Shown: positions 36,972 through 52,452 of the stretch, piece by piece
Layout: the number at the start of each line of letters is the position of its first letter
Position numbering within the stretch: the first letter of the stretch is position 1
Translations under genes and position numbers: made by a program
Origin: a bacterium
Lineage (GTDB): Bacteria > Desulfobacterota > DSWW01
Direction of reading: 5' to 3'
NCBI GenBank assembly: GCA_028277985.1
Contig: JANQFG010000068.1
Location: forward strand, 1 to 64,000
Length of the DNA: 64,000 bases
Notes under the pieces: generated by a model
The model's database searches: none
What the model saw: the letters and a program-made list of their open reading frames with translations, nothing else
Told to the model about the DNA's origin: nothing

Positions 36972-38726
36972 ATGGAAGCTCGCCCCTTTGAGGATCGACA
37001 AAGAAGGATCTTCGGTCATGTTTTGATGATTCTTTCTGTTGCCGCGCTGATCGGACTGTTCGGCAGCGGCTGCGGTGACGACGACGACGGTTCGAGCAAC
37101 GCGAACCAGCCGGCCTGGACCGGAGACCCGCTCACCGAAACCGAGGCGGGACCTGTCAGGGGCGTCAAGGGGAAGGCCGATACCTGGGTCTGGAAGGCGA
37201 TTCCGTTTGCCAGGCCGCCCGTCGGAGACCTTCGCTGGAAAGCGCCCCGGGACCCGGAGCCCTGGACGGCCGTGAGGGAAAGAAGCCAGTTCTGCCAGCC
37301 CTGCTCCCAGTTCTTCTTCATTGGTACTGAAACCTACGGCAAGGAGGACTGCCTGTACCTGAATGTCTGGCGTCCACGCACGTCGGAGACGAATCTGCCG
37401 GTCTACTTCTGGATCCACGGCGGAGGCAACACCCTGGGCACGGCATCCACCGAGGACTACAACGGCGCGAACCTCGCCGACCGATCCAACCTGGTGGTCG
37501 TGACCACAAACTACCGAATCGGGCCCTTCGGATGGTTCACCCATCCCGCCCTCAGGCAAGGGGTGCCGGGCAGCGAGCTGGACGATTCGGGTAACTTCGG
37601 GACACTTGACCTGATCAAGGCCCTCGAATGGGTGCGGGACAACATCGAGGCCTTTGGCGGGGACCCGGACAGGGTGATGATCGCTGGAGAATCTGCAGGG
37701 GCCATGAACGTCTTCTCGCTCCTGATTTCTCCACAGGCGGAGGGCCTTTTTCACAGGGCCATGGCCGAGAGCGGCGGACCTATCTCGAGTTCGATGGAGG
37801 AAGGGGAAGAGGGGGCCCGAAACGCGGTCCTCAAGCTTCTGGTGAACGACGGGACAGCGGCAGATACCGCCGCGGCCGCGGCCTACCTGGACGGTATGAC
37901 CGAACCGGAGATCGAGGCCTATCTAAGGGGAAAGAGCGCCGTTCAGATGCTCAGGGCCTACGCCCCTTGGTTCGGCGGTATGTTCACCATGCCGAACGTG
38001 TTCCCGGACGGTACGGTGTTGCCGGAAATGGGCTACGCGACGCTCCGGGCCGGCACCCACCCGAACAAGGTGCCCACCATCCTGGGAAGCAACAAGGACG
38101 AGATGAAGCTTTTCATGTTCGCGGATCCGGCATTCAAGGGAAGGGAGGATCTCTACGAAGTGGTCACGACCTACGGGAGCGACACGTGGAAGGCCGTGGG
38201 TGTGGACGAGCCCGCCGCGGCCCTGTGCGCTCAAGCCGGCCAGCCGGATGTCTATGCCTACCAGTTCCTCTGGGGAACCTTGGACGAGAACGGGCACAGC
38301 GAGCTTCCGGATCCCTTCGGGTTCATCCTCGGCTCCTTCCATGCGCTCGAGATCCCCTTCTTCTTCGGGAACGATTCATTCTTTGTCGGCATGCAGTACC
38401 TGCTCTTCAACGAGGCAAATCGCCCGGGCCGGGAGGCCCTCTCCACGGTCATGATGCAGTATGCTGCATCATTCGCCTACACAGGCGACCCGAACCCACC
38501 CGGATCCGGGCTGCCGGTGTGGAGCCCCTGGTCGGAAGAAACGGACGGCCCCAAATGCATCCTCTTCGACGTTCACCCGGACCAGACCCTGGATATTGGC
38601 ATGTCCACGGCCGAGCTTAACGTGGAAGGGGTCCTGGAGCGGATGGCCGTCGAGGTCCCTGAGCCCCTGCTCAGCGAGGCCGCGGCCTATCTTGAACCCT
38701 GGGGCGACCGGTTTTCGAGCGATTAG
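36972..38726 (+). CDS. Type B carboxylesterase lipoprotein
   Basis: 584-residue exported esterase. The signal FGHVLMILSVAALIGLFGSGC ends in a lipobox Cys followed by Asp residues. Mature alpha/beta hydrolase: FWIHGGGNTLG oxyanion loop, VVTTNYRIGPFGWF, the nucleophile Ser in MIAGESAGAMNV (about 240), the acid region ILGSNKDEM, and catalytic His in GSFHALEIPF. Family signature EDCLYLNVW is present. Anchored in the envelope, so it probably hydrolyses external esters. ATG follows GGAGGATCTTTCC. Confidence 0.92.
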   Translation: MEARPFEDRQRRIFGHVLMILSVAALIGLFGSGCGDDDDGSSNANQPAWTGDPLTETEAGPVRGVKGKADTWVWKAIPFARPPVGDLRWKAPRDPEPWTAVRERSQFCQPCSQFFFIGTETYGKEDCLYLNVWRPRTSETNLPVYFWIHGGGNTLGTASTEDYNGANLADRSNLVVVTTNYRIGPFGWFTHPALRQGVPGSELDDSGNFGTLDLIKALEWVRDNIEAFGGDPDRVMIAGESAGAMNVFSLLISPQAEGLFHRAMAESGGPISSSMEEGEEGARNAVLKLLVNDGTAADTAAAAAYLDGMTEPEIEAYLRGKSAVQMLRAYAPWFGGMFTMPNVFPDGTVLPEMGYATLRAGTHPNKVPTILGSNKDEMKLFMFADPAFKGREDLYEVVTTYGSDTWKAVGVDEPAAALCAQAGQPDVYAYQFLWGTLDENGHSELPDPFGFILGSFHALEIPFFFGNDSFFVGMQYLLFNEANRPGREALSTVMMQYAASFAYTGDPNPPGSGLPVWSPWSEETDGPKCILFDVHPDQTLDIGMSTAELNVEGVLERMAVEVPEPLLSEAAAYLEPWGDRFSSD

Positions 38727-38987
38727 TGAGTTGCCACCGCCCCCACAATCTGGGCCATTCTATCCAGCGGTTACTCATACGGGAACCCACCAGCCTCATA
38801 AGGATATTGCGAGTCGCCAGGGGCGACGTGGCAATCCCCTCGCCCGGTAGGGGGCTGACTTGTCCGACGATTCCGCTCAATGGAGAGGCTGGCGAAACCC
38901 TGGAAGGCCGACCAGCGTTGTATAGGTGCGGTATACATTGAATCTTGAGGGGTGGCGTCCCTTATCTTCAGATGAGGAATCGAGATA
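38727..38987. other. Gene-free intergenic stretch between convergent genes
   Basis: Both flanking genes end here. No coding signal is apparent; the only structured element is the palindrome at 38806-38835. Confidence 0.6.
38806..38835. repeat. REP-like palindromic element
   Basis: A 30-nt two-step palindrome: outer arms ATTGC/GCAAT (38806-38810 and 38831-38835) around an inner GTCGCC-agg-GGCGAC hairpin. This ATTGC...GCAAT layout resembles dispersed extragenic palindromes common in deltaproteobacterial genomes. No T-run follows on either strand. Confidence 0.5.
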
Positions 38988-40253
38988 TTATCTGCTTCTT
39001 CTCAAGACGCTCAGCAGAATGACGGTACCGATCGGCACAAGAAGGAAGGCGAGGCTATTGAATAGCCTGGAACCCTCCCTAGATGTTTTTTCGTATCCAG
39101 AGGCTTCCGCAGGGGTGCCGGGCCATGTAGGGCTCAAGTCCTCTCCCACGCCCGAGGTGACAAGGAGGCGCTTGTCCATATCGATGTAGCTGATATGGAC
39201 ATTGCCTGAAGAGTCAACACCCATGGAAGGTGGGCTGCTACCCGGCTCCAGCCGATCGGAGAGCGGTCCGGAAAGAGTCCAGGCCCCGTGAGCGTTGGTG
39301 GCATAATTGACCCTGATACTATCGTCCTCATCCCTAACGCCGTAAGCTATATGCGCACGGTTCGCGCTGTCCGTGGCCATGGCCGTCCAGGGTGGTATCA
39401 ACTCGCTCCCTTGCCAGGCTACCATGGCCGGACGCATTCTTCCCGTCGTATCTGAAGCATGGGTAACAAAGTTCCAGAATTGTTCGCCTATGATAAACAG
39501 GGTTACGTAAGCAATATGGACATAATCAGACGCGTCGATCGCAAGGGAGGGGTGCCAGGCTATGATCCCACCGAAGGGCCACGTAATGAGAGGGGTCTCC
39601 TCCCAGGATCCCGAGGAATTGGTGGCATAATATTCCGCACCACTGCCGGGCAATTTCTCTATGGTCCCGTAGCGTAGATGTACGTACCCACCGCTGTCGA
39701 CTGCGATGTCCGTCCGTCCGTAAAGGAATTCCCACACATCAAAACCATGCGTGATTTGCTCACTTGTCCAATCGCCTGATCTGTTTGTTGTGTAGATGAC
39801 ACTGTGCGAGAGGAAACAAAGGTGTACATGACCCGATGGACCAATAGCGATGGAGGGGTCGGAACCTAGCCCTATTTCTCCTATGTCCACGATTGCCCAG
39901 GATCCTGAAGAATTGGTCATGTACTTGATCTGCCCTTCGAACGTGTCACAGACGATATGCAGATTATTGGCATCGTCAACGGCCACCGATGGATTGTCGA
40001 CTACAAGGGAGGGTTCGATCGAGCTGCTCACCCAGGCTCCTGTGCCGTTTGTGGCGTATTTGAGTCCTTGGGACGACTCGTCACGATACACGATGTGGAC
40101 GTGGTCCGAGCCATCCACCGTGAGAGAGGAAGGGCCGAGTACCGGCCCATCGTCAACTACTGCCGTTTCCCAGGCCCAGGCCGGCTGCGCTGTATAAACC
40201 GTGACTAGGAAGAACGTGATCAGGGCCAGTATCCACCGGTTCTTCTGTTCCAT
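38988..40253 (-). CDS. Secreted repeat protein with C-terminal membrane/Arg sorting tail
   Basis: 421 residues. Signal peptide RWILALITFFLVTVYTAQPAWAW. The body has about seven degenerate ~45-residue blades with the pattern PS.A.D..D.VHI.Y......KYATN.SGSW, as in beta-propeller lectin or sialidase-like folds. The tail is LFNSLAFLLVPIGTVILLSV followed by LRRSR, a hydrophobic helix with a basic end. That tail aligns without gaps to the tail of the otherwise different protein ending at 4952. SD GGGAGAG precedes the ATG. Function unknown; predicted cell-surface. Confidence 0.75.
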   Translation of the reverse strand: MEQKNRWILALITFFLVTVYTAQPAWAWETAVVDDGPVLGPSSLTVDGSDHVHIVYRDESSQGLKYATNGTGAWVSSSIEPSLVVDNPSVAVDDANNLHIVCDTFEGQIKYMTNSSGSWAIVDIGEIGLGSDPSIAIGPSGHVHLCFLSHSVIYTTNRSGDWTSEQITHGFDVWEFLYGRTDIAVDSGGYVHLRYGTIEKLPGSGAEYYATNSSGSWEETPLITWPFGGIIAWHPSLAIDASDYVHIAYVTLFIIGEQFWNFVTHASDTTGRMRPAMVAWQGSELIPPWTAMATDSANRAHIAYGVRDEDDSIRVNYATNAHGAWTLSGPLSDRLEPGSSPPSMGVDSSGNVHISYIDMDKRLLVTSGVGEDLSPTWPGTPAEASGYEKTSREGSRLFNSLAFLLVPIGTVILLSVLRRSR

Positions 40254-40475
40254 TATGCTCTCCCAAATTGATGTGGATCTTCCCCGCTTAGCGGCAGTAT
40301 AGTGCAGAGTTGCCTCGAACTCCAGGAATTTTCATCTCTCATGTAGCTATCGGGTTATGCTCCCCCTCGCCTCTGTGGAAAACACATGTGTTCGGAATCC
40401 TCAACCCTGCCCGATGGGCCGCCAATGATAGCTTCGACGTCGATGCATTGATTCCTGGGAGGAACCAATTAGGCA

Positions 40476-40907
40476 TCAACGGCGGCTCTTGTGACGCATG
40501 CGGGATGCCTTGGCTGGCTTCAGGATCTCGAGATCCGTGTGCTTTGCGATCTTTTCGAAATCCCGATCATTGTGAAGCAGAGGAACCCTGTGCTCAATGG
40601 CGACCGAAGCGATCATACAGTCCAGGGCTGTGCGGATTGTGAAGCCTTTCTTTCGGAGGGTTCGGTACATTTGAGATGAACGCAGGAATGTGTCGCGCGT
40701 CATAGGGAGAAAGAGGAGACATTCGAAGTAGTCTTTGGTTCTGGCATGTTCTGAGTCTGATCGGATTCCTTGGAGAACCTCGGCAAGAACGATCCCGCAG
40801 ATACAGATATCCTCTCCGGTCTCAAGAAGGAGCTCCAGGGTGGCTACATGCGGGCGTGGTCTTCCGGCGAAGAAGTCGATCCAGACAGTCGTATCGACAA
40901 GGATCAT
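40476..40907 (-). CDS. vapC: PIN-domain toxin VapC
   Basis: 143-residue ribonuclease toxin. PIN acidic residues are visible: Asp in MILVDTTVWIDFF, Glu in IVLAEVLQG, Asp in TALDCMIAS and Asp in LLHNDRDFEKI. Its ATG overlaps the antitoxin stop by 4 bp (ATGA). VapC enzymes typically cut initiator tRNA or the sarcin-ricin loop of 23S rRNA. The C-terminus is basic. The module borders the broken MMPL exporter and the 41-45 kb island. Confidence 0.92.
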   Translation of the reverse strand: MILVDTTVWIDFFAGRPRPHVATLELLLETGEDICICGIVLAEVLQGIRSDSEHARTKDYFECLLFLPMTRDTFLRSSQMYRTLRKKGFTIRTALDCMIASVAIEHRVPLLHNDRDFEKIAKHTDLEILKPAKASRMRHKSRR

Positions 40908-41107
40908 CGGGATCGGCCTTTACGCCATGTCTTCAGATCTCCTTCCCATTGGACAGTGCCTTTCAGTTCCAGGATCTTCTTCTGGCGCTCACGGCGCAGG
41001 AGTTCATGAAGCGCGTGGTCAATCAGGGCGCGGCGCGTCTTGATCCCTGTGGCCTTCTGGCACGCTTCGACCAGTTCGTCATCGAGTACAACATTCGTCC
41101 TGCCCAT
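40904..41107 (-). CDS. vapB: VapB-type antitoxin
   Basis: 67 residues: MGRTNVVLDDELVEACQKAT, then RALIDHALHELLRRERQ and the toxin-wrapping tail ELKGTVQWEGDLKTWR. This is the ribbon-helix-helix VapB type (TNVVLDDELV strand followed by two helices). The ATG at 41107 is preceded by AGGAGG; a longer ORF to 41233 would run through the promoter/operator and is rejected. Translationally coupled to vapC. Confidence 0.9.
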   Translation of the reverse strand: MGRTNVVLDDELVEACQKATGIKTRRALIDHALHELLRRERQKKILELKGTVQWEGDLKTWRKGRSR

Positions 41108-41134
41108 GCCACTTGCCTCCTGCCTTGTCTTCAA

Positions 41135-41171
41135 CAATACACATAATATGGTGAAATAATGTGTATTGCAA
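41135..41171 (-). promoter_or_regulatory. vapBC promoter and operator
   Basis: Inverted repeat CAATACACAT (41135-41144) and ATGTGTATTG (41159-41168), perfect over 10 bp with a 14-nt spacer. On the minus strand TTGCAA (41171-41166), 17 bp, TATTAT (41148-41143) forms a promoter embedded in the repeat, the usual design for autorepression by a VapBC complex. Confidence 0.75.
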
Positions 41172-41189
41172 GGGCTTTCTTCCGGCAAG

Positions 41190-41348
41190 TTATTGTTGGC
41201 CGATGTTTTCCCTCCCCAAGGGCTTGAAGACAAGCAAGAGGACCGGCAGCAGGATCAAGTCAGCAAACACCGCACCGATGACCGCGAAGCCGATGAGCAC
41301 GGCCTTGCGCGAGCGGAGCACGTATTGGGCTTCTGAGATGCCGGCTGA
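41190..41348 (-). pseudogene. C-terminal remnant of an MMPL/RND-family exporter
   Basis: Minus-strand reading gives SEAQYVLRSRKAVLIGFAVI followed by GAVFADLILLPVLLLVFKPL and GRENIGQQ-stop. The intact exporter at 46010-48313 ends GAIIGDLILLPVLILITKPL and GRSAPAQG. The reading frame is closed by a TAG two codons upstream of the match at 41349. This is therefore a 3' fragment of a second exporter gene; its 5' fragment is at 45785-45967. Confidence 0.85.
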
Positions 41349-41674
41349 ACGCTAGCCTCTTCTTCACTGCCCCAACCCGACAAACTGTTCTTTTAGTAGG
41401 ACAAGACTAAACAGGGAGCATCGCGCACAGCGAGATCAACCCGGCCTAGCTTTGAGAAATGCGCGGATAGGAGACGGTCCGCCCACCGGCGCTGTTATGC
41501 GATACCATGGAGACTGGTGGTAGGGGCAGAGGGACGGCGCAGATATTAGATGCAAAACAGGTTGTAGTTTCTTCTCCAGCGCTGTTTCACAATAGACCTA
41601 GCGTCGCCATGACCAATGACAAGTGACCGACATCACTATATTCAAGCCTCAACAAGAGGTTCGCTGCCGCAACG
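41349..41674. other. Gene-free island flank
   Basis: About 325 bp between the exporter tail remnant and the stop of the RelA/SpoT-like gene. I see no supported ORF, transposase piece or clear terminal repeat. It contains the left boundary of the inserted island. Confidence 0.5.
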
Positions 41675-42571
41675 TTATTTCCCCTTCTTCTTCAACAAGC
41701 CGGGTAGCGTCTTAGCGGTTACCCCTAGACTCTTCGTCAGAAGCGTGGCAGGAGAATCACTCATCGCCGCTATGACTTCATACTGCCTGTCAAGTTTTGC
41801 CTCTGACTCGATAACCTCCTTCTTCTTAACCAACTTCCGCTGAAAGTCCGCTAGCTTATCCTGATACTGTCTCCACAGGTTCGCATAGGAGCTTATCTGA
41901 TCCGCTTGACCCGACAGGCGACTAGAGAGCTTAGTGAACTCCTCTATAACCTGATTGTCCTGATAGTAGGGGTACGCCATTTCATGAGAAATCTCACTCC
42001 ACGCCTCTTCAAAGAGAGTCCTTACTTGCAGTTCCACCACATGCTTGGTGCTTTTGTCGCACTGTACCTCTACAATGTAATGGATGGACCTGTATCCCTT
42101 TTCTGAGGGCTTCAGTTCACATCCTTCGGCTTCGTAATGCGACAGAAGCTCGGGTGGATCTTGTTCAAGAACATTTGCCTCGGGGTTCCCAAGTACGTCC
42201 CATTTCTTGTGGATGAACCTGTGGATAGCTACCCAGTCTTCCTTGAATAGATGCAATGCCCTGACACCCGCAAGATCCTCTACCTTAGTGCTGTAATTGG
42301 TTGACGTTGCATATATCGATCCATCCCTAATGGTCCTTCTGATTATCTTCTCTACGAGGTGCTCAGCGTCCTTTACCCTCCATTTGACTGCATGGACGCG
42401 TGGCCCTGGCCTGATGATATCTGCTGCAAGTCTTGCAGGGACATCCAGGTCTTTCCTCCACATGGAAAAATCGTTGTATATCAATTGGAGTTCAGACCAG
42501 ACCAACCCAGTCTTTCTGAACTTGTAGTGACTTATGCCGTATTTCTCAAAAAACTCTCGCTGACTTAGCAT
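41675..42571 (-). CDS. RelA/SpoT-domain nucleotide pyrophosphokinase (small alarmone-synthetase-like)
   Basis: 298 residues with one RelA/SpoT synthetase domain and no HD hydrolase or TGS/ACT region. ATP-site region KWRVKDAEHLVEKI (64-77), Mg-binding Asp99 in VEDLAGVRAL, substrate loop GYRSIH (159-164) and Glu180 in VELQVRTLFEEAW are all kept, so it should be catalytically active. Residues 210-298 form a basic helical tail unlike RelA. Such single-domain enzymes make (p)ppGpp-type alarmones or, in toxSAS/CapRel systems, modify tRNA or adenosine nucleotides. Last gene of the AT-richer island, 54 nt after the HExxH gene. No strong SD. Confidence 0.85.
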   Translation of the reverse strand: MLSQREFFEKYGISHYKFRKTGLVWSELQLIYNDFSMWRKDLDVPARLAADIIRPGPRVHAVKWRVKDAEHLVEKIIRRTIRDGSIYATSTNYSTKVEDLAGVRALHLFKEDWVAIHRFIHKKWDVLGNPEANVLEQDPPELLSHYEAEGCELKPSEKGYRSIHYIVEVQCDKSTKHVVELQVRTLFEEAWSEISHEMAYPYYQDNQVIEEFTKLSSRLSGQADQISSYANLWRQYQDKLADFQRKLVKKKEVIESEAKLDRQYEVIAAMSDSPATLLTKSLGVTAKTLPGLLKKKGK

Positions 42572-42625
42572 AGGCTCAATCCATGATCTGAATCCGGGTC
42601 TGCGATAGCTTTCTCCAAGAAGTCT

Positions 42626-44827
42626 TCATTTGCTCTTCTTCGCATTCTCGTTTTTTGTCAGCACTGCAGTATGCCACAATGTCATAATGGCAGCCATTCT
42701 TGCCTGGAATGTCATGTGTCGTTCTTCTTTTTTCAGACCAAGAATGAATGTCTCGGGATTTCTGATGGGGTTAAGGAAGATTTTTCCTTGCAGTACATTT
42801 TCGATCGCCTCTTTCATCCCCTTCTTTCGGAGCTCATGCCCAAGTTTCTTCATCGGTACTCTTTCAGAATAGCTTCGGTGAAGCATTTCCAATACTCTGG
42901 CTACTCCTTGGAAGGCTGCTGAAGCTTCATCCTTCAAACCCATCGAGTTGGGCGTCCTCAGGTCCAACGTGGTGAGCTTACCGATGAACTCGTCGATATC
43001 AGCCTTGACAGGCATCGCATTCGGGAAAGTCTTTCGTCTTCGTTTCACTAGGTATTTCCAGTATTCAAAGACGCAGAAGTATCTAATGAAATGGAGGTCA
43101 TCCAAATCGCGTCCCGGGCGGACAATGTAAGACCAGATGTTCTCAAGATAGAAATCAATGTCGTCACCATAACAGAAGTACAAATCGAAGGTGTCTGCTC
43201 CAAGCTCCCACATCAGTTTCTTCCACATTATGACTCGCTCTTCATCAGCAATGTCCGGAACAAGTTGCAGCAAGATGTCCGAAACCTCCTCTCCATCTAG
43301 GTCGACGAGTTCCCCCTCAAATAGTGCTGCGTGGCCAACTTCGTGAAAAAGCCCCCACCAACGTTCGGGACAGAAGAGTAGGTCGAAGGGGAGGTTCACT
43401 ATGTCGGTGATGGATGAAAAACCTTGCCCTTGAAACCCAGCGACCACGAAACCCTTCCATTTGAGTCCGACATTTTCAAGCAGACGCTCAACAATCACAC
43501 CGGCCGCTTTCAATACTCTCTGAATACCACCCTTCGTAGGAGAGAATTGACTCTCTGAGTGTTCCAGTCCAAGGAACGCGCCTCGTGCTCGTTCTTCAGC
43601 TCCATGAGTTATGGCCTGGATGTATGTCCCTACATGCATTCTGACATCTTCGTCTTCTCGATCGGTTTGTTTCAGCAGATATAGCAATCGGTCCTCGGCG
43701 GCTATTCTGAGATCTTCAAAGCAATCACCAATGAGCGGATCTTGCATGAGATTGCTGAGCCCGAAGTAGAGGTTTCTCAGACTGTTCTCGAAGATAGGTC
43801 CCCACCGCTCGAAGAGCCCCATTCTACTTTTCGTGATGCTCAGTCCTCTGCGGTTCTTCCCCGGGCCCATGAGATCTTCCATGCTTTCGGGCGTTTGTTC
43901 ACAAAGGACGTTCACTGAAGTTGAATACAGGCGTTGCGCCAGCCCGTTTCTTGTATCCAAGACTGCCTTGATGAACTCACCCCATGTGCTTGTCCCTTGC
44001 GGCTTGAAGACTACGTCTTTGCAGCCGAACGTCCCAAACCCTCTACCAAATTTCTTCTCGCCGAATTCGATCACCGCCTTCATGTCGCCAGGCGCGCATG
44101 TCACATCAAAAGTGGGGAACACACCCTCACCATATGTGAACTGCTCGTTGAACCTCTTTGGTAGACTACTTTTCAGGGGAGGCTGAGTCAGCTGAAAATC
44201 TATACCCACGAGCGAAAACGTTTTTGCAGAAAAGAGGTCATGCTTCCGCATTTCCTTCGTGATAACAACTACAGACTTTCGGCCAATATTGCTAAGAGCA
44301 GTAGTTATGTCTGAGAATCGCTTGCCCCTGACAATGAATACTAATTCAGCCCAGCCTGTCGTTCCCAGAATGTTGAGGGTCACGTCCTTGAGAGCGTTCT
44401 CGCGCCAATACTGTGTGAGTACGGTGTCGATGTGCGCTCCAAAGGTACGGGCCAGAGATTCATTTATGCGAAAGAAGAGTAAGCCCCAGACATCTCCTCG
44501 ACGGGTATTGAATGGGCCTTCACCTTGGCCGGCGTCTAAGGGAAATGCAAGAATCTGATTCCCTCCTCTAATATTGTCAATCGAGCCTCGTCTGCTGGGG
44601 CCTTCCAGGAAGTCCTTGCTTTGGTAGATGACGCACACATCGTATCGGCCGAAGATCTTCAGAACACAGATAGGTGGGTTGCCCGTTTCCGTCTCAATCG
44701 CCCTTCTGATTCTGTTGGCAACATTGCCCTCTTTACCGGGGGCGACAGTGAGCAGGGATATTTTGTAGCCTATCGGGCCTAAACTTGCTTGTTGTGAGTC
44801 CTTTCTTTTCATCTTTTCAGATCCCAT
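42626..44827 (-). CDS. Large protein with AsnC/RAM-like repeats and a gluzincin-type HExxH site
   Basis: 733 residues; no family recognised as a whole. N-terminal half has segments resembling AsnC/Lrp ligand-binding (RAM) folds: residues 20-73 (ISLLTVAPGKEGNVANRI ... GRYDVCVIYQSKDF), about 130-185, and 238-295 (FDVTCAPGDMKAVIEFGEKK). The C-terminal half has a zinc-peptidase site: HEVGH (His495, Glu496, His499) with Glu541 and Asp545 in WELGADTFD as likely third ligand and partner, the gluzincin arrangement. No signal or membrane helix, so cytoplasmic. Start uncertain (44827 or ATG at 44812); no strong SD. Followed by the RelA/SpoT gene on the same strand. Confidence 0.7.
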   Translation of the reverse strand: MGSEKMKRKDSQQASLGPIGYKISLLTVAPGKEGNVANRIRRAIETETGNPPICVLKIFGRYDVCVIYQSKDFLEGPSRRGSIDNIRGGNQILAFPLDAGQGEGPFNTRRGDVWGLLFFRINESLARTFGAHIDTVLTQYWRENALKDVTLNILGTTGWAELVFIVRGKRFSDITTALSNIGRKSVVVITKEMRKHDLFSAKTFSLVGIDFQLTQPPLKSSLPKRFNEQFTYGEGVFPTFDVTCAPGDMKAVIEFGEKKFGRGFGTFGCKDVVFKPQGTSTWGEFIKAVLDTRNGLAQRLYSTSVNVLCEQTPESMEDLMGPGKNRRGLSITKSRMGLFERWGPIFENSLRNLYFGLSNLMQDPLIGDCFEDLRIAAEDRLLYLLKQTDREDEDVRMHVGTYIQAITHGAEERARGAFLGLEHSESQFSPTKGGIQRVLKAAGVIVERLLENVGLKWKGFVVAGFQGQGFSSITDIVNLPFDLLFCPERWWGLFHEVGHAALFEGELVDLDGEEVSDILLQLVPDIADEERVIMWKKLMWELGADTFDLYFCYGDDIDFYLENIWSYIVRPGRDLDDLHFIRYFCVFEYWKYLVKRRRKTFPNAMPVKADIDEFIGKLTTLDLRTPNSMGLKDEASAAFQGVARVLEMLHRSYSERVPMKKLGHELRKKGMKEAIENVLQGKIFLNPIRNPETFILGLKKEERHMTFQARMAAIMTLWHTAVLTKNENAKKSK

Positions 44828-44899
44828 CGTTAGTGGTCTGAGGTTGTTGGGTCCGGTAGGGCCGTGCCAAGGGGCGACAACATCCTTGGCGATGGTTCA

Positions 44900-44935
44900 G
44901 AAAAGAGAAAGGGCCAACCCTCTGGGTTGACCCCT
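44900..44935 (-). terminator. Intrinsic terminator-like hairpin
   Basis: Minus strand: GGGTCAACCC-aga-GGGTTGGCCC (one G-T pair) followed by CTTTCTCTTTTC. It lies 120 nt after the 64-residue ORF and 73 nt before the HExxH gene, so it would end or attenuate the island transcript there. Confidence 0.55.
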
Positions 44936-45056
44936 CTAAGTCATGAATAATGATAGTAAGGTGCTTGCTGAACAATTGAGTCACCGAACAGCCTGGGGCT
45001 TATCCGCGCCACTCTGCACCATTTCTTGCCGATTCAAGCTCGTGTGTCGTCCCCCA

Positions 45057-45251
45057 TCATCCCTTGCGGCCTCGGGCCCCCGGTGCTACACGCACACGGT
45101 CAAGGTAGGCCTTAGAATCGGCAATCCATTTAGGTAGGGTCACCACAAACGATTGCTTTGAACTCTTCAGCCTGTCTCCTTCCAGTCGTGTCCCCCAGCG
45201 GTTACACCGGGTCGCGCCAGAAACCTTGACCAATCCTAGAGAGAGGGCCAT
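45057..45251 (-). CDS. Small AbrB/SpoVT-like protein (putative)
   Basis: 64-residue ORF with a near-ideal ribosome-binding site (GGAAGGAGA, about 7 nt before the ATG), which argues it is real. The segment KSSKQSFVVTLPKWIADSKA and then YLDRVRV follows the spacing of AbrB/SpoVT/MazE swapped-hairpin DNA-binding domains (S..V.LPK.......D.V.V). A regulator or antitoxin role at the head of the island operon is inference. A perfect TTGACA lies about 100 bp upstream. A hairpin with T-rich tail lies between it and the HExxH gene. Confidence 0.5.
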   Translation of the reverse strand: MALSLGLVKVSGATRCNRWGTRLEGDRLKSSKQSFVVTLPKWIADSKAYLDRVRVAPGARGRKG

Positions 45252-45784
45252 TGTTCTCTCCTTCCGAAATCCTTTCCTACATAGATTGTTGTGAGGAAAA
45301 GCTAGAGTCTTTTATCAACTAATTTAGACGAGTAGAACCACATCGTAGCACGGATGTCAAGAAAAATCTATACAGTCTCAGCTGCCAGGCAGAAAAATGT
45401 TTGATGTGGAAAACAGCTTGTATTTTCAATAGTATGCCAGTTTCCAGGCTGAAAACGCAACCAGTACTTCCTATCGGTGGTCCCGGAAAAATTCTTTACC
45501 CGTACGTTCTATAGATGTAGCGGAATCTGATACGATTCTGCCACCAGGAGCGCCTGGGCATCCAGCTACAGCTCGCAAGTTCCTCGAGGAATCGGAGTTG
45601 ACCGGCGCCGCAGGCACTACACAACATATTCCCCTTTTCAGGCTGAACGCTGAGGCCGCCCAGGGTATCTCGGGATTCAAACAGCCGAATCCGAATTCTA
45701 ACAGGAAAGCCCTTTCTCTCACAAAATCTCCCTCCCACAAGTGCGATTGTGATCTCCAGAGAAATCGGTCTTCGAATCTGCTAC
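45252..45784. other. Gene-free upstream region of the island, with candidate promoter
   Basis: No supported gene. On the minus strand a perfect TTGACA sits at 45360-45355, about 105 bp before the small ORF, but the -10 at 17-bp spacing (TTCTAC) is poor. The stretch is AT-rich and holds several CAGGCTGAA-type repeats. The right boundary of the island is at or near 45785. Confidence 0.4.
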
Positions 45785-45967
45785 TCAAGGCTCGACGAAG
45801 GCCTTCAACAGGGGATATTCCGGGTCGTTCTGAAAGATGAGCTCCTCAGGGCTTTTGTCGATATGAATGAGGACCGCGAAATATCCCAGGCAGAGAGTGA
45901 CTATCCCGATCCCTGCGAGGATGGAGTGCCGCCTGGTCAGAATGAATCGGGCGAGGCCCTCCGTCAT
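45785..45967 (-). pseudogene. N-terminal remnant of an MMPL/RND-family exporter
   Basis: 60 codons, MTEGLARFILTRRHSILAGI then GIVTLCLGYFAVLIHIDKSP and FQNDPEYPLLKAFVEP-stop. They match the start of the intact paralogue (METLARFILARRYYILIGIG ... FKDDPEYPRHQAFFEEF) and stop just where the paralogue continues. SD GGGAGAG with good spacing is intact, so a short peptide may still be made. It starts 42 nt after the stop of the intact exporter: the two were tandem genes, and the second has lost its middle to the island. Confidence 0.85.
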
Positions 45968-46009
45968 CGGATTCTCTCCCGTGCAATGGCCTTGTTGGCA
46001 GGGTTGCGT

Positions 46010-48313
46010 TCAGGCTTCGATACCCTGCGCGGGAGCACTCCTGCCCAGGGGTTTGGTGATGAGGATCAATACTGGCAACAGGATCAGGTCCCCGATGATA
46101 GCGCCCACAACCGTCAAGTTGATCAGCATGCCCATGTTGCGAGTGTACTGGAAGTTCGAAAAGAGGAAGATGAAGAAGCCGGCCGTAAGGACCACAGACG
46201 TGATCAGGATCGGTTTTCCGACAGATATCATCGTGCGTTCAATGGCACTTTCATAGTTCTGATCCAAGGAGTACTCCCTCTTAAAACGTGACATAAAGTG
46301 GATCGTATCGTCGATGGCAATACCAAGGGCGATGGCGGCGAGCGGGGCTGTTGCGAAATTGAGTGAGATGCCAAGCAATCCCATGAATCCGAAGGTGATC
46401 GTTATGGGTACTACGTTTGCCAACATGCTGATCAACCCGACCTTGAGTGACCGGAAAAGAATGATCATTAGGAAGAGAATTGCGGCACCTGCGAGAACAA
46501 GTCCCTGTCTGAGTCCCTTTAGGAAGGGCATCAGAGTGTTACCGAGCATGATGTTGGTGCCGGTCACGTAAGCGTTCACATTTGGGATTGTGCCGAACTC
46601 TGATTCCAGGTACGGAAGGGTCGCGTCCATTAGCTGCTGGTATGAATCAAAGTCGTGAGGTCGGAATCGGATGGCTACGGAAGCCTTGGAATAATCGTCA
46701 TTGAAGAACCTCTCAATCAGACCGGATTCGTCAGACATCGAGGCCATGAGGAGAAGCTCGGCAACGGCCCTCCGATCATCTGGGATGCTGTATGCGGTAG
46801 GGTCGTCATCCTGAAGCCGAAAATTGATGTACTTGATTAGATCCGCCCCGGAAACGACCTTGTCCACCCCAGCCTGTTGCCGGATGAAGGCGCCGAGTTC
46901 GTCCAGCTTCTCGAGCAACAAGGGATCCTTGATTCGATCCGTCTCTTCGCTTTCGACGACCACAAAGAAGGGTATGAACCCCCCGAGCTTCTCCTCGATG
47001 AAGCTCGTGTCTGTGACCAGCTTCATCTTTTTGCCGAAGAATTTCGCCGGGTCTGTCTCGACATGCAGGTTTACCGCTCCGTAGCCTGCCGCGAGAAATA
47101 GGACCAGGAATATGGGGAGAAACATGCCTTTCCTGGTCAAATTGAACCTGTGTGTCTTTGTAAGGAATCCTAGAAAGGCCTCGGAGGGCGGCTTGCGGAG
47201 GCTCAGCGGTCTTGTGTCTCCCATACTCAATCCAATAGGGAGGAGGGTCATCGACAGGAGGAAAGCGAAGCCCATGCCGACGGCGCTGAAGATGCCGAAA
47301 AGGCTGAGGGCCTCGATACGACACACGGCGAGAGAGGCGAAGCCGATCATGGTGGACAGGGTGGTAAGAGAGCAGGGGACCAGCATCAAGCCGACGGTGC
47401 GACTGACCGCCTCAGACTTGGTGCTGCAAGTACTGCGGCAATCCTGGTACTGACTCAAGATGTGTATGCAGTCGGCAGTACCGACGATGAACAGGATCGT
47501 TGGAATCAGGACCGAGAAGAAGTTCAGTTCCGATCCTGTAAGGTACATGACACCCACTGCCCAGACCACACTCAGGCTGATGGCCATGAAGGGGAGCAGG
47601 ATGCAGAGGTAGTTTCTGAAGATGAGATACATAGCCAGGATGAGCAGACAGATGCCCATGGGCAGTAAGGTGCTGAAGTCCCGCCTCATGCACCGGAAGA
47701 TCTCCGATCTTCCAACAGGGGAGCCGGCCATGTAGTGGGGGTGTCCGTTGCCTTCCCTGGAGAATATTTCGTCGATCCGCCTGAGCACGGTATCACGTTC
47801 ATCGACCCTGAGCTTTCCATCCAGCGTGATGTCGAAGAGCGCCATGCTGTTGTCCTTTGACACGAGGAGATCCTCATACAGAGGGTTTGCCTCGACTCTT
47901 TGCTTCAGGGCTTCTTGTTGCTCGAGGTTCTCGGGCATGGTGTGAAAGAAGGGGCCGACGGTGAGAGCGCCGTTCTCAACATAGATATCTTCGGCGTTCC
48001 CCACGGAAAGAACTCCGGTGATCCCTTCTACCAGACTGAGTTCTTCGGTTATTCTGACTATCCCCTCAAGGGTCTCGGCCTCAAGGACGTTGTCCGCCGA
48101 GTAGGCGGCTGCCACCACCTCGTCGTAGCCGAACTCCTCGAAAAAGGCTTGGTGTCGAGGATACTCAGGGTCATCTTTGAACATCAGCTCGTCCGGCCTC
48201 TGGTTTAGGTCTATACGGAGGGAGAAAGCGCCAAGGAAAACGGTCATTGCTCCGATTCCTATAAGGATGTAATACCGCCTGGCCAGGATGAAGCGGGCGA
48301 GGGTCTCCATCAT
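46010..48313 (-). CDS. MMPL/RND-superfamily exporter
   Basis: 767-residue inner-membrane transporter with the 1+5+1+5 helix plan: first helix RYYILIGIGAMTVFLGAF, periplasmic domain, then LLPMGICLLILAMYLIFRNY onward including the conserved GTADCIHILSQYQD (SSD-like, Asp for proton relay). A second periplasmic domain and final helices follow, ending LILLPVLILITKPL. Family members move lipids or hydrophobic compounds across the envelope (HpnN/MmpL/Dispatched-like). ATG 48313 follows GAGGAGA at about 7 nt. A truncated paralogue follows immediately. Confidence 0.92.
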   Translation of the reverse strand: MMETLARFILARRYYILIGIGAMTVFLGAFSLRIDLNQRPDELMFKDDPEYPRHQAFFEEFGYDEVVAAAYSADNVLEAETLEGIVRITEELSLVEGITGVLSVGNAEDIYVENGALTVGPFFHTMPENLEQQEALKQRVEANPLYEDLLVSKDNSMALFDITLDGKLRVDERDTVLRRIDEIFSREGNGHPHYMAGSPVGRSEIFRCMRRDFSTLLPMGICLLILAMYLIFRNYLCILLPFMAISLSVVWAVGVMYLTGSELNFFSVLIPTILFIVGTADCIHILSQYQDCRSTCSTKSEAVSRTVGLMLVPCSLTTLSTMIGFASLAVCRIEALSLFGIFSAVGMGFAFLLSMTLLPIGLSMGDTRPLSLRKPPSEAFLGFLTKTHRFNLTRKGMFLPIFLVLFLAAGYGAVNLHVETDPAKFFGKKMKLVTDTSFIEEKLGGFIPFFVVVESEETDRIKDPLLLEKLDELGAFIRQQAGVDKVVSGADLIKYINFRLQDDDPTAYSIPDDRRAVAELLLMASMSDESGLIERFFNDDYSKASVAIRFRPHDFDSYQQLMDATLPYLESEFGTIPNVNAYVTGTNIMLGNTLMPFLKGLRQGLVLAGAAILFLMIILFRSLKVGLISMLANVVPITITFGFMGLLGISLNFATAPLAAIALGIAIDDTIHFMSRFKREYSLDQNYESAIERTMISVGKPILITSVVLTAGFFIFLFSNFQYTRNMGMLINLTVVGAIIGDLILLPVLILITKPLGRSAPAQGIEA

Positions 48314-51878: not shown

Positions 51879-52241
51879 TCACCCTGGAAAGGGAACAAAC
51901 TTCGAGCGAAGAATGCGACGGTCTCGAGTCACCAGTGGAACGCGGTGAACGATACTCGTTGCGGCAATGAGTTCGTCCGCCGGGTCGCCGACAAAGTCCA
52001 ACTGAGTCGAGACGCGCGCGATCTCAAGATCCAGCGGCCACACATGTATGCTGGACAATGCGTTGGTCAGCTCGGGATCGTCAAGATCCAGGGTTACCCT
52101 TCCGAGCTGCACGAGCTTTGCGAGCTCCCAGAGGACGATAGAGGCAATACTCCACGAGTCGTTCGCGAGCAATTTGCGCTCGCCGGGCTTGATGTCGCCG
52201 CGGAGCGCATGAACCAGTATGTGCGTGTCAAGGTTCAGCAT
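51879..52241 (-). CDS. PIN-domain toxin (VapC-like)
   Basis: 120-residue PIN ribonuclease: Asp in MLNLDTHILVHAL, Glu in IVLWELAKL, Asp in FVGDPADELIAATS and Asp in PLVTRDRRILRS. Start at 52241, giving a 14-bp overlap with the antitoxin. It pairs with the Phd/YefM-type antitoxin. The module sits between a DUF523-DUF1722 gene and a broken truD tail, so it is probably acquired. Confidence 0.88.
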   Translation of the reverse strand: MLNLDTHILVHALRGDIKPGERKLLANDSWSIASIVLWELAKLVQLGRVTLDLDDPELTNALSSIHVWPLDLEIARVSTQLDFVGDPADELIAATSIVHRVPLVTRDRRILRSKFVPFPG

Positions 52242-52452
52242 CGGCGTCCCACGCGATCCCTGTGGAGAGAATGTCACCCTCGACCTCTATCTTGTTCCGA
52301 AGGGATCCAATGAGGTCCGCGGGCGGTTGGGGGTATGGGATGACGCGCGCGACCGGCCTCCCGTGTTTCGTTACGATCAGCCCATCCGGCGCAAGCTTCT
52401 CGAGCAATGCGAGGCACTGTTCCTTGAACTTGGCGGCACCAATTGTCTTCAC
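52228..52452 (-). CDS. Phd/YefM-type antitoxin
   Basis: 74 residues: MKTIGAAKFKEQCLALLEKL, then DGLIVTKHGRPVARVIPY, the Phd/YefM DNA-binding fold with its T.RG.P.A.L.. strand, followed by an acidic flexible tail that would cap the PIN toxin. GTG start after GAGGAGG. First gene of the pair; overlaps the toxin by 14 bp. Confidence 0.88.
   Translation of the reverse strand: MKTIGAAKFKEQCLALLEKLAPDGLIVTKHGRPVARVIPYPQPPADLIGSLRNKIEVEGDILSTGIAWDADAEP

Follow-up and report, generated by a model that had tools for sequence, protein, structure and literature searches.

A two-gene unit between the remnants of an exporter gene

The window analysed here is a stretch of 64,000 nucleotides from a contig of a bacterium of the Desulfobacterota. 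The unit of interest in this window consists of two minus-strand genes: a gene for a 733-amino-acid protein, hereafter the hub protein (42626-44827), followed after 54 nt by a gene for a 298-amino-acid single-domain RelA/SpoT synthetase (41675-42571), the predicted effector. The 54 nt between the two genes, which share the same strand, contain no terminator-like site. As an earlier note on this DNA had remarked, the segment is AT-richer than its neighbours: its GC content is 0.48-0.49 against 0.586 for the whole window, and its GC3 is 0.54-0.57 against 0.70-0.81 in the nearby MMPL, esterase and kinase genes.

The same note had described an island of three genes, with a small AbrB-like protein preceded by a strong Shine-Dalgarno sequence as its third product. 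The two large genes are real, but the third, a 64-amino-acid ORF (45057-45251, minus strand), had to be dropped. Its ribosome-binding site is indeed good; an AbrB/MazE identity was however rejected, as no domain match was obtained at E<=1. More generally, the ORF fell into none of the families of Pfam, NCBIfam and PADLOC at E<=1, or of PHROGs at E<=0.1. Moreover, a strong intrinsic terminator on the minus strand (44908-44936; 13-pair stem with a T-rich tail, fold -22.9 kcal/mol, z -2.96) lies 5' of the hub gene and 3' of the small ORF, separating the two. Given this terminator and the lack of a family match, we take the unit to be two genes and the 64-amino-acid ORF to lie outside it. An Rfam search of the 40-49 kb region returned zero matches.

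The unit is bounded by the two ends of a destroyed MMPL exporter gene, as had been proposed, since both remnants match the intact MMPL gene nearby. The 5' remnant of this second MMPL gene (45785-45967, minus strand) is 53% identical over 66 amino acids to the N-terminus of the intact protein (E 5e-18). The 3' remnant (41196-41336, minus strand) is ~49% identical to its last ~45 amino acids; this match is weak when taken alone (E 0.09), yet end, strand and order all fit. The break shows no clear target-site duplication, and the only repeats there are short and at chance level. In a genome of the same genus (G001), the esterase gene and the intact MMPL gene lie ~160 bp apart, and blastn of this locus (L062) against the window delimits a variable segment, 38714-46061, that is missing from G001 together with VapBC. 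Judged from this comparison, the segment is either an insertion in the present genome or a deletion in G001. The genome that contains the window (8.85 Mb, with 7.85% estimated contamination) is larger than those of other members of its genus; the contig shares synteny with G001, in support of its belonging to this genome.

Several other features surround the unit. A VapBC pair (40476-41107; PF09957 and PF01850 matches), which the earlier reading had correctly placed next to the island, directly adjoins the MMPL 3' remnant and lies inside the segment missing from G001, as does a gene for a secreted-looking 421-amino-acid BNR-like repeat protein (38988-40253). A second PIN-like ORF, recognized by eye, is found on the minus strand at 51879-52277, ~6 kb from the module. 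Judged likewise by eye, the gene content of the window is otherwise housekeeping, and VapBC is the sole exception to the absence of a defence island.

A RelA/SpoT synthetase without a hydrolase domain keeps its catalytic motifs

The 298-amino-acid protein matches PF04607 over residues 65-203 (E 4.8e-20, passing the cut-off) and has no HD (hydrolase) domain. When it was aligned to RelP/YwaC chains, the motifs RVK, DLAGVR, GYRSIH and ELQVRT were found at the positions of the catalytic RxK, DxxGxR, GYRSxH and ExQxRT signatures, which are invariant across nine relatives. The earlier note had proposed an apparently active RelA/SpoT pyrophosphokinase, and the motifs for catalysis are intact. In the AlphaFold2 model (pLDDT 77), the best Foldseek matches are to the small alarmone synthetases RelP and RelQ (E 7e-10), with CapRel ranking lower; the C-terminal ~70 amino acids are predicted to be helical, with low confidence.

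The enzyme also matches phrog_2211, a phage RelA/SpoT family (E 2e-41). Indeed, eight viral contigs (L042-L049) carry relatives of 337-397 amino acids with 29-36% overall identity, and a hub gene was found at none of the eight loci. Some of these viral genes lie near integrase or lysis genes. Plasmid-collection records and a PM2-like Vibrio element contain further relatives, and one hub-bearing genome (G230) carries a lone RelA/SpoT copy away from its hub, besides a SIR2-hub pair. The viral loci and the G230 copy indicate that the enzyme can exist without the hub. The window enzyme differs from its viral-contig relatives in having a hub gene upstream and a shorter C-terminus (298 versus 337-397 amino acids overall), and that the hub stands in for a built-in control is speculation.

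The hub protein combines predicted ferredoxin-like repeats with a zincin-like site

The 733-amino-acid protein gave no family match in Pfam, NCBIfam, PADLOC or PHROGs. Its AlphaFold2 model, with a mean pLDDT of only 57, contains three tandem ferredoxin-like repeats of the RAM/dimeric alpha+beta barrel type at residues 20-95, 113-210 and 236-309 (43901-44770, minus strand, for residues 20-309 together), a helical linker region and a zincin-like domain of the HExxH...ExxAD kind. At this level of confidence, the secondary structure of the repeats is consistent with a beta-alpha-beta-beta-alpha-beta fold, and a Foldseek search with them found tandem alpha+beta barrels, namely chlorite dismutase/HemQ (E 4e-4). 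We rejected a haem-enzyme reading of this match and took it to reflect the common barrel fold. A profile search of the PDB with the hub found the AsnC/RAM chain 2cvi, a weak match (E 0.08). For the repeats announced by the earlier note, the model predicts three ferredoxin-like units; "RAM-like" is a reasonable label for them, short of proof at pLDDT 57 and E 0.08.

The second feature attributed to this protein, an HEVGH...ELGAD site, fared better: the ORF is real and the zinc motif is kept across the family. HEVGH (residues 495-499; 43331-43345, minus strand) lies on one helix of the model and ELGAD, the probable third zinc ligand motif (residues 541-545; 43193-43207, minus strand), on a later helix. 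The H, E and H of the first motif are invariant in 10/10 family members, and an E/D..[ASC][DE] motif follows 3' of it, likewise in 10/10. This conservation in sequence argues for a working zinc site.

The hub defines a rare family in two bacterial phyla

Single-sequence searches with the 733-amino-acid protein in genome contigs, viral contigs and plasmids gave zero matches, and the relatives were recovered by whole-genome searches and profiles. The resulting family has ten members of 730-840 amino acids in two phyla: four in the phylum of the window (the window itself, G149, G223 and G230) and six in the Nitrospirota (G395, G457, G494, G529, G639 and G734). It is rare (4/389 and 6/395 genomes sampled), and no second member was found in the window's own genome. 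Pairwise identity is mostly 20-28%, but reaches 50% within a tighter clade of G494, G457, G529 and G639; the most divergent member, G734, still clearly belongs, scoring 110 bits against a profile built without it. Neither the family's central sequence nor the profiles matched anything in plasmids, phages and viral contigs. A weak match in G651 (L041) was rejected as an ordinary XRE-ImmA gene in a HigBA-like locus. The searches and the sequence conservation show that the hub belongs to an uncharacterised family, rare among the genomes sampled, whose zincin site is conserved.

Hub genes are paired with chemically different enzymes

Seven of the ten hub genes have a partner gene: SIR2-like in four cases, RelA/SpoT in two and metallo-beta-lactamase (MBL)-fold in one. 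Five of these seven partners abut or overlap the hub gene. The hub gene is directly preceded by a SIR2-like gene in G149, G223, G230 and G395; the two are either 3 nt apart or overlap by 1-8 nt. All four products carry the SIR2_2 active-site motifs NYD and KIHGSLSH; PF13289 (SIR2_2) exceeds its cut-off in only one (L007), and L008 has a PADLOC SIR2 match at E 9e-5. The MBL-fold gene, in G734, overlaps the end of the hub gene. In G223, a nucleoside 2-deoxyribosyltransferase-like gene (L005:3200-3679) directly follows the hub and could be a third component there. The three remaining hubs, in G457, G529 and G639, are partner-less and have a ~100-amino-acid C-terminal extension; a membrane effector in this extension is unsupported, as no transmembrane-like hydropathy is seen.

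The earlier note had set a test in advance, namely whether the 733-residue family adjoins RelA/SpoT genes in other genomes. Such adjacency was found once outside the window, in the Nitrospirota genome G494 (L030), where a 276-amino-acid RelA/SpoT gene (PF04607 E 8e-7, over the cut-off) comes first, followed on the same strand by a gene for a 102-amino-acid protein and then by the hub. The 102-amino-acid protein (L030:9441-9749) is without a family match. RelA/SpoT neighbours thus occur in only 1/9 of the other hub members, with one gene in between. By chance alone, at least one of the nine other hubs would have a RelA/SpoT gene no more than two genes away with a probability of ~1-3%, a rough estimate that assumes random gene placement, 1-3 RelA/SpoT genes per genome and ~3500 genes. 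The two RelA/SpoT enzymes are 28% identical and their gene order relative to the hub is reversed; in the hub tree, the two RelA/SpoT-paired hubs are split by a branch with 100/100 support, and the well-supported branches cannot be reconciled with fewer than two changes. From these sequences, the enzymes of the window and G494 pairings seem to have been recruited separately. Resolution is poor among the deep branches of the tree, which therefore does not reveal in what order partners were exchanged.

The coupling of hub and RelA/SpoT proposed by the earlier note thus gains a second, independent pairing, but SIR2-like enzymes are the commoner partner. With SIR2 in four of seven pairs, one MBL-fold partner and three solo members, RelA/SpoT is not the defining partner. 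To judge from the gene neighbourhoods, the case for a module is made more by the full range of partners (SIR2, MBL or RelA/SpoT beside 7/10 hubs) than by the RelA/SpoT link alone, and the conserved part appears to be the HExxH protein, with alarmone chemistry as one option among several. We consider it highly probable, at roughly 0.85, that the hub and its neighbours form a partner-swapping functional module.

A candidate defence or stress module

The absence of the hub-RelA/SpoT pair in G001, its low GC and its position inside a broken gene were counted as points for mobility, and the pair is probably a horizontally acquired, compact conflict or stress module. To this extent the idea of an undescribed defence or stress system is supported, as a candidate in which a RAM-repeat zinc-protease protein stands beside a RelA/SpoT enzyme. 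A predicted sensor-protease protein beside interchangeable enzymes (an alarmone-type RelA/SpoT enzyme in the window, an NAD-degrading SIR2-like enzyme or a hydrolase in relatives) is the arrangement one would predict for a system against phages or stress. As to a role in defence or abortive infection, we lean slightly towards it. The surroundings of some relatives are suggestive of defence, with no statistical enrichment: in G149, a type I restriction subunit, a TIR protein and a transposase lie near the hub, and the G395 locus adjoins a phage virion gene. The solo hub of G639 is ~5 kb from a dynamin-like gene (L031:846-3446) that resembles the candidate defence protein LeoA, and G223 has the nucleoside deoxyribosyltransferase-like gene mentioned above. 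The window and the remaining hub loci sit among ordinary genes. The recurrence of the RelA/SpoT subfamily in prophages is a further point in favour of the preferred reading.

We infer that the partner is the effector, that the hub controls it and that the repeats sense. The RAM/ferredoxin-like repeats would detect a ligand or a phage component. In the resting cell, the HExxH protein would keep the partner enzyme inactive; upon a trigger, it would either let the partner go or activate it by proteolytic cleavage. Once free, the RelA/SpoT enzyme might then pyrophosphorylate its target, the tRNA 3' end or purine nucleotides, and growth would stop before the phage or the stress spreads. Antitoxin-like restraint and proteolytic activation have about equal chances. 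The most specific version, an undescribed class of immune or stress hub in which a ligand-sensing zinc protease acts directly on interchangeable enzymes that destroy nucleotides or NAD, the RelA/SpoT synthetase among them, and activates them by limited cleavage, is conceivable, but we consider it doubtful. Points that count against the preferred reading are the low confidence of the hub model, the three solo members, which need another output, the RelA/SpoT subfamily, which mostly occurs without a hub, the single RelA/SpoT neighbour among the nine other members, with a gene in between, and the housekeeping surroundings of the window.

Elements of the module recall known systems. ToxSAS enzymes are toxic alone, pyrophosphorylate tRNA or make (pp)pApp, and are neutralised by an adjacent or fused antitoxin; in CapRel, this antitoxin is a fused C-terminal pseudo-zinc-finger. 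Like these, the window enzyme is a single-domain RelA/SpoT protein with intact catalytic motifs beside a possible regulator. Its partner, however, is a 733-amino-acid zincin and not Panacea, PAD1 or a pseudo-zinc-finger: the Pfam, NCBIfam and PADLOC searches found no known toxSAS antitoxin domain at the locus. Nor was a fused C-terminal antitoxin domain as in CapRel seen in the window enzyme, whose C-terminus is helical with low confidence. The four SIR2-hub loci resemble SIR2-based abortive infection systems (DSR2, Thoeris ThsA, SPARSA) in having a SIR2-like enzyme with NAD-site motifs as the apparent effector, but differ in the predicted control by a separate RAM-zincin protein and in their very weak match to the PADLOC SIR2 models. 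Among the rare components catalogued at the effector position of other conflict systems are RelA and metallopeptidase domains (PMC7159879). The hub-RelA/SpoT pairing itself was not found described in the open-access literature, the scope of our search, subscription papers lying outside it.

Closest in plan is RosmerTA, whose ImmA-type protease antitoxin occurs with a variety of toxins (PMC10440598). There too, one HExxH-type protein stands with different, presumably toxic enzymes in varying gene order, which raises the possibility that the hub is a distant antitoxin of the ImmA/M78 protease type, and the module a divergent toxin-antitoxin pair, an account that overlaps with the restraint version above. 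An hhalign comparison of the hub family with six M78 proteins aligned HExxH and E..AD.F with a probability of 83%, and hints in sequence at a remotely M78-like core. No hub member, however, matches PF06114 (ImmA/M78) at the limits used, and PF06114 runs on whole member genomes matched other genes and not the hub genes. The three RAM-like repeats and the length of 730-840 amino acids are not ImmA-like, and the partner set (SIR2, RelA/SpoT, MBL) is a further difference, so that we regard a divergent RosmerTA as rather unlikely.

Alternatively, the module could be a metabolic or stringent-response regulator, with RAM repeats that bind an amino acid or metabolite and a protease that tunes an ordinary alarmone synthetase in starvation, and no phage role. 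In favour, amino acids are ligands of the RAM-type domains in Lrp/AsnC proteins, the RelA/SpoT model comes nearest in fold to RelP and RelQ, which are housekeeping synthetases, and the surroundings in the window are likewise housekeeping. Nevertheless, the exchange of SIR2-like, RelA/SpoT and MBL-fold enzymes on one hub, the rarity of the family, its absence in G001 and the island setting in G149 fit an accessory module better, and we judge this alternative unlikely. Least likely of all are accidental neighbours, in which an independent phage-type RelA/SpoT gene landed by the hub after the loss of a true SIR2-like partner: the usually solitary state of this RelA/SpoT subfamily, in prophages and G230, and the four SIR2-paired hubs would fit, but the common strand, the 54-nt gap free of terminator-like sites, and a G494 pairing at ~1-3% chance (rough) that involves a different enzyme subfamily all speak against it.

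If the partner-swapping module is real, one sensor-protease scaffold would control chemically unrelated growth-stopping enzymes, and a new hub family tied to alarmone-type enzymes would be added to bacterial immunity. As the hub is kept while its partner varies, partner exchange could tell sensing from restraint, and the pairing could point to a function for the phage-borne family phrog_2211. Elsewhere in the window's own genome, another single-domain RelA/SpoT gene is followed by an overlapping 331-amino-acid ORF (L025:3969-5728).
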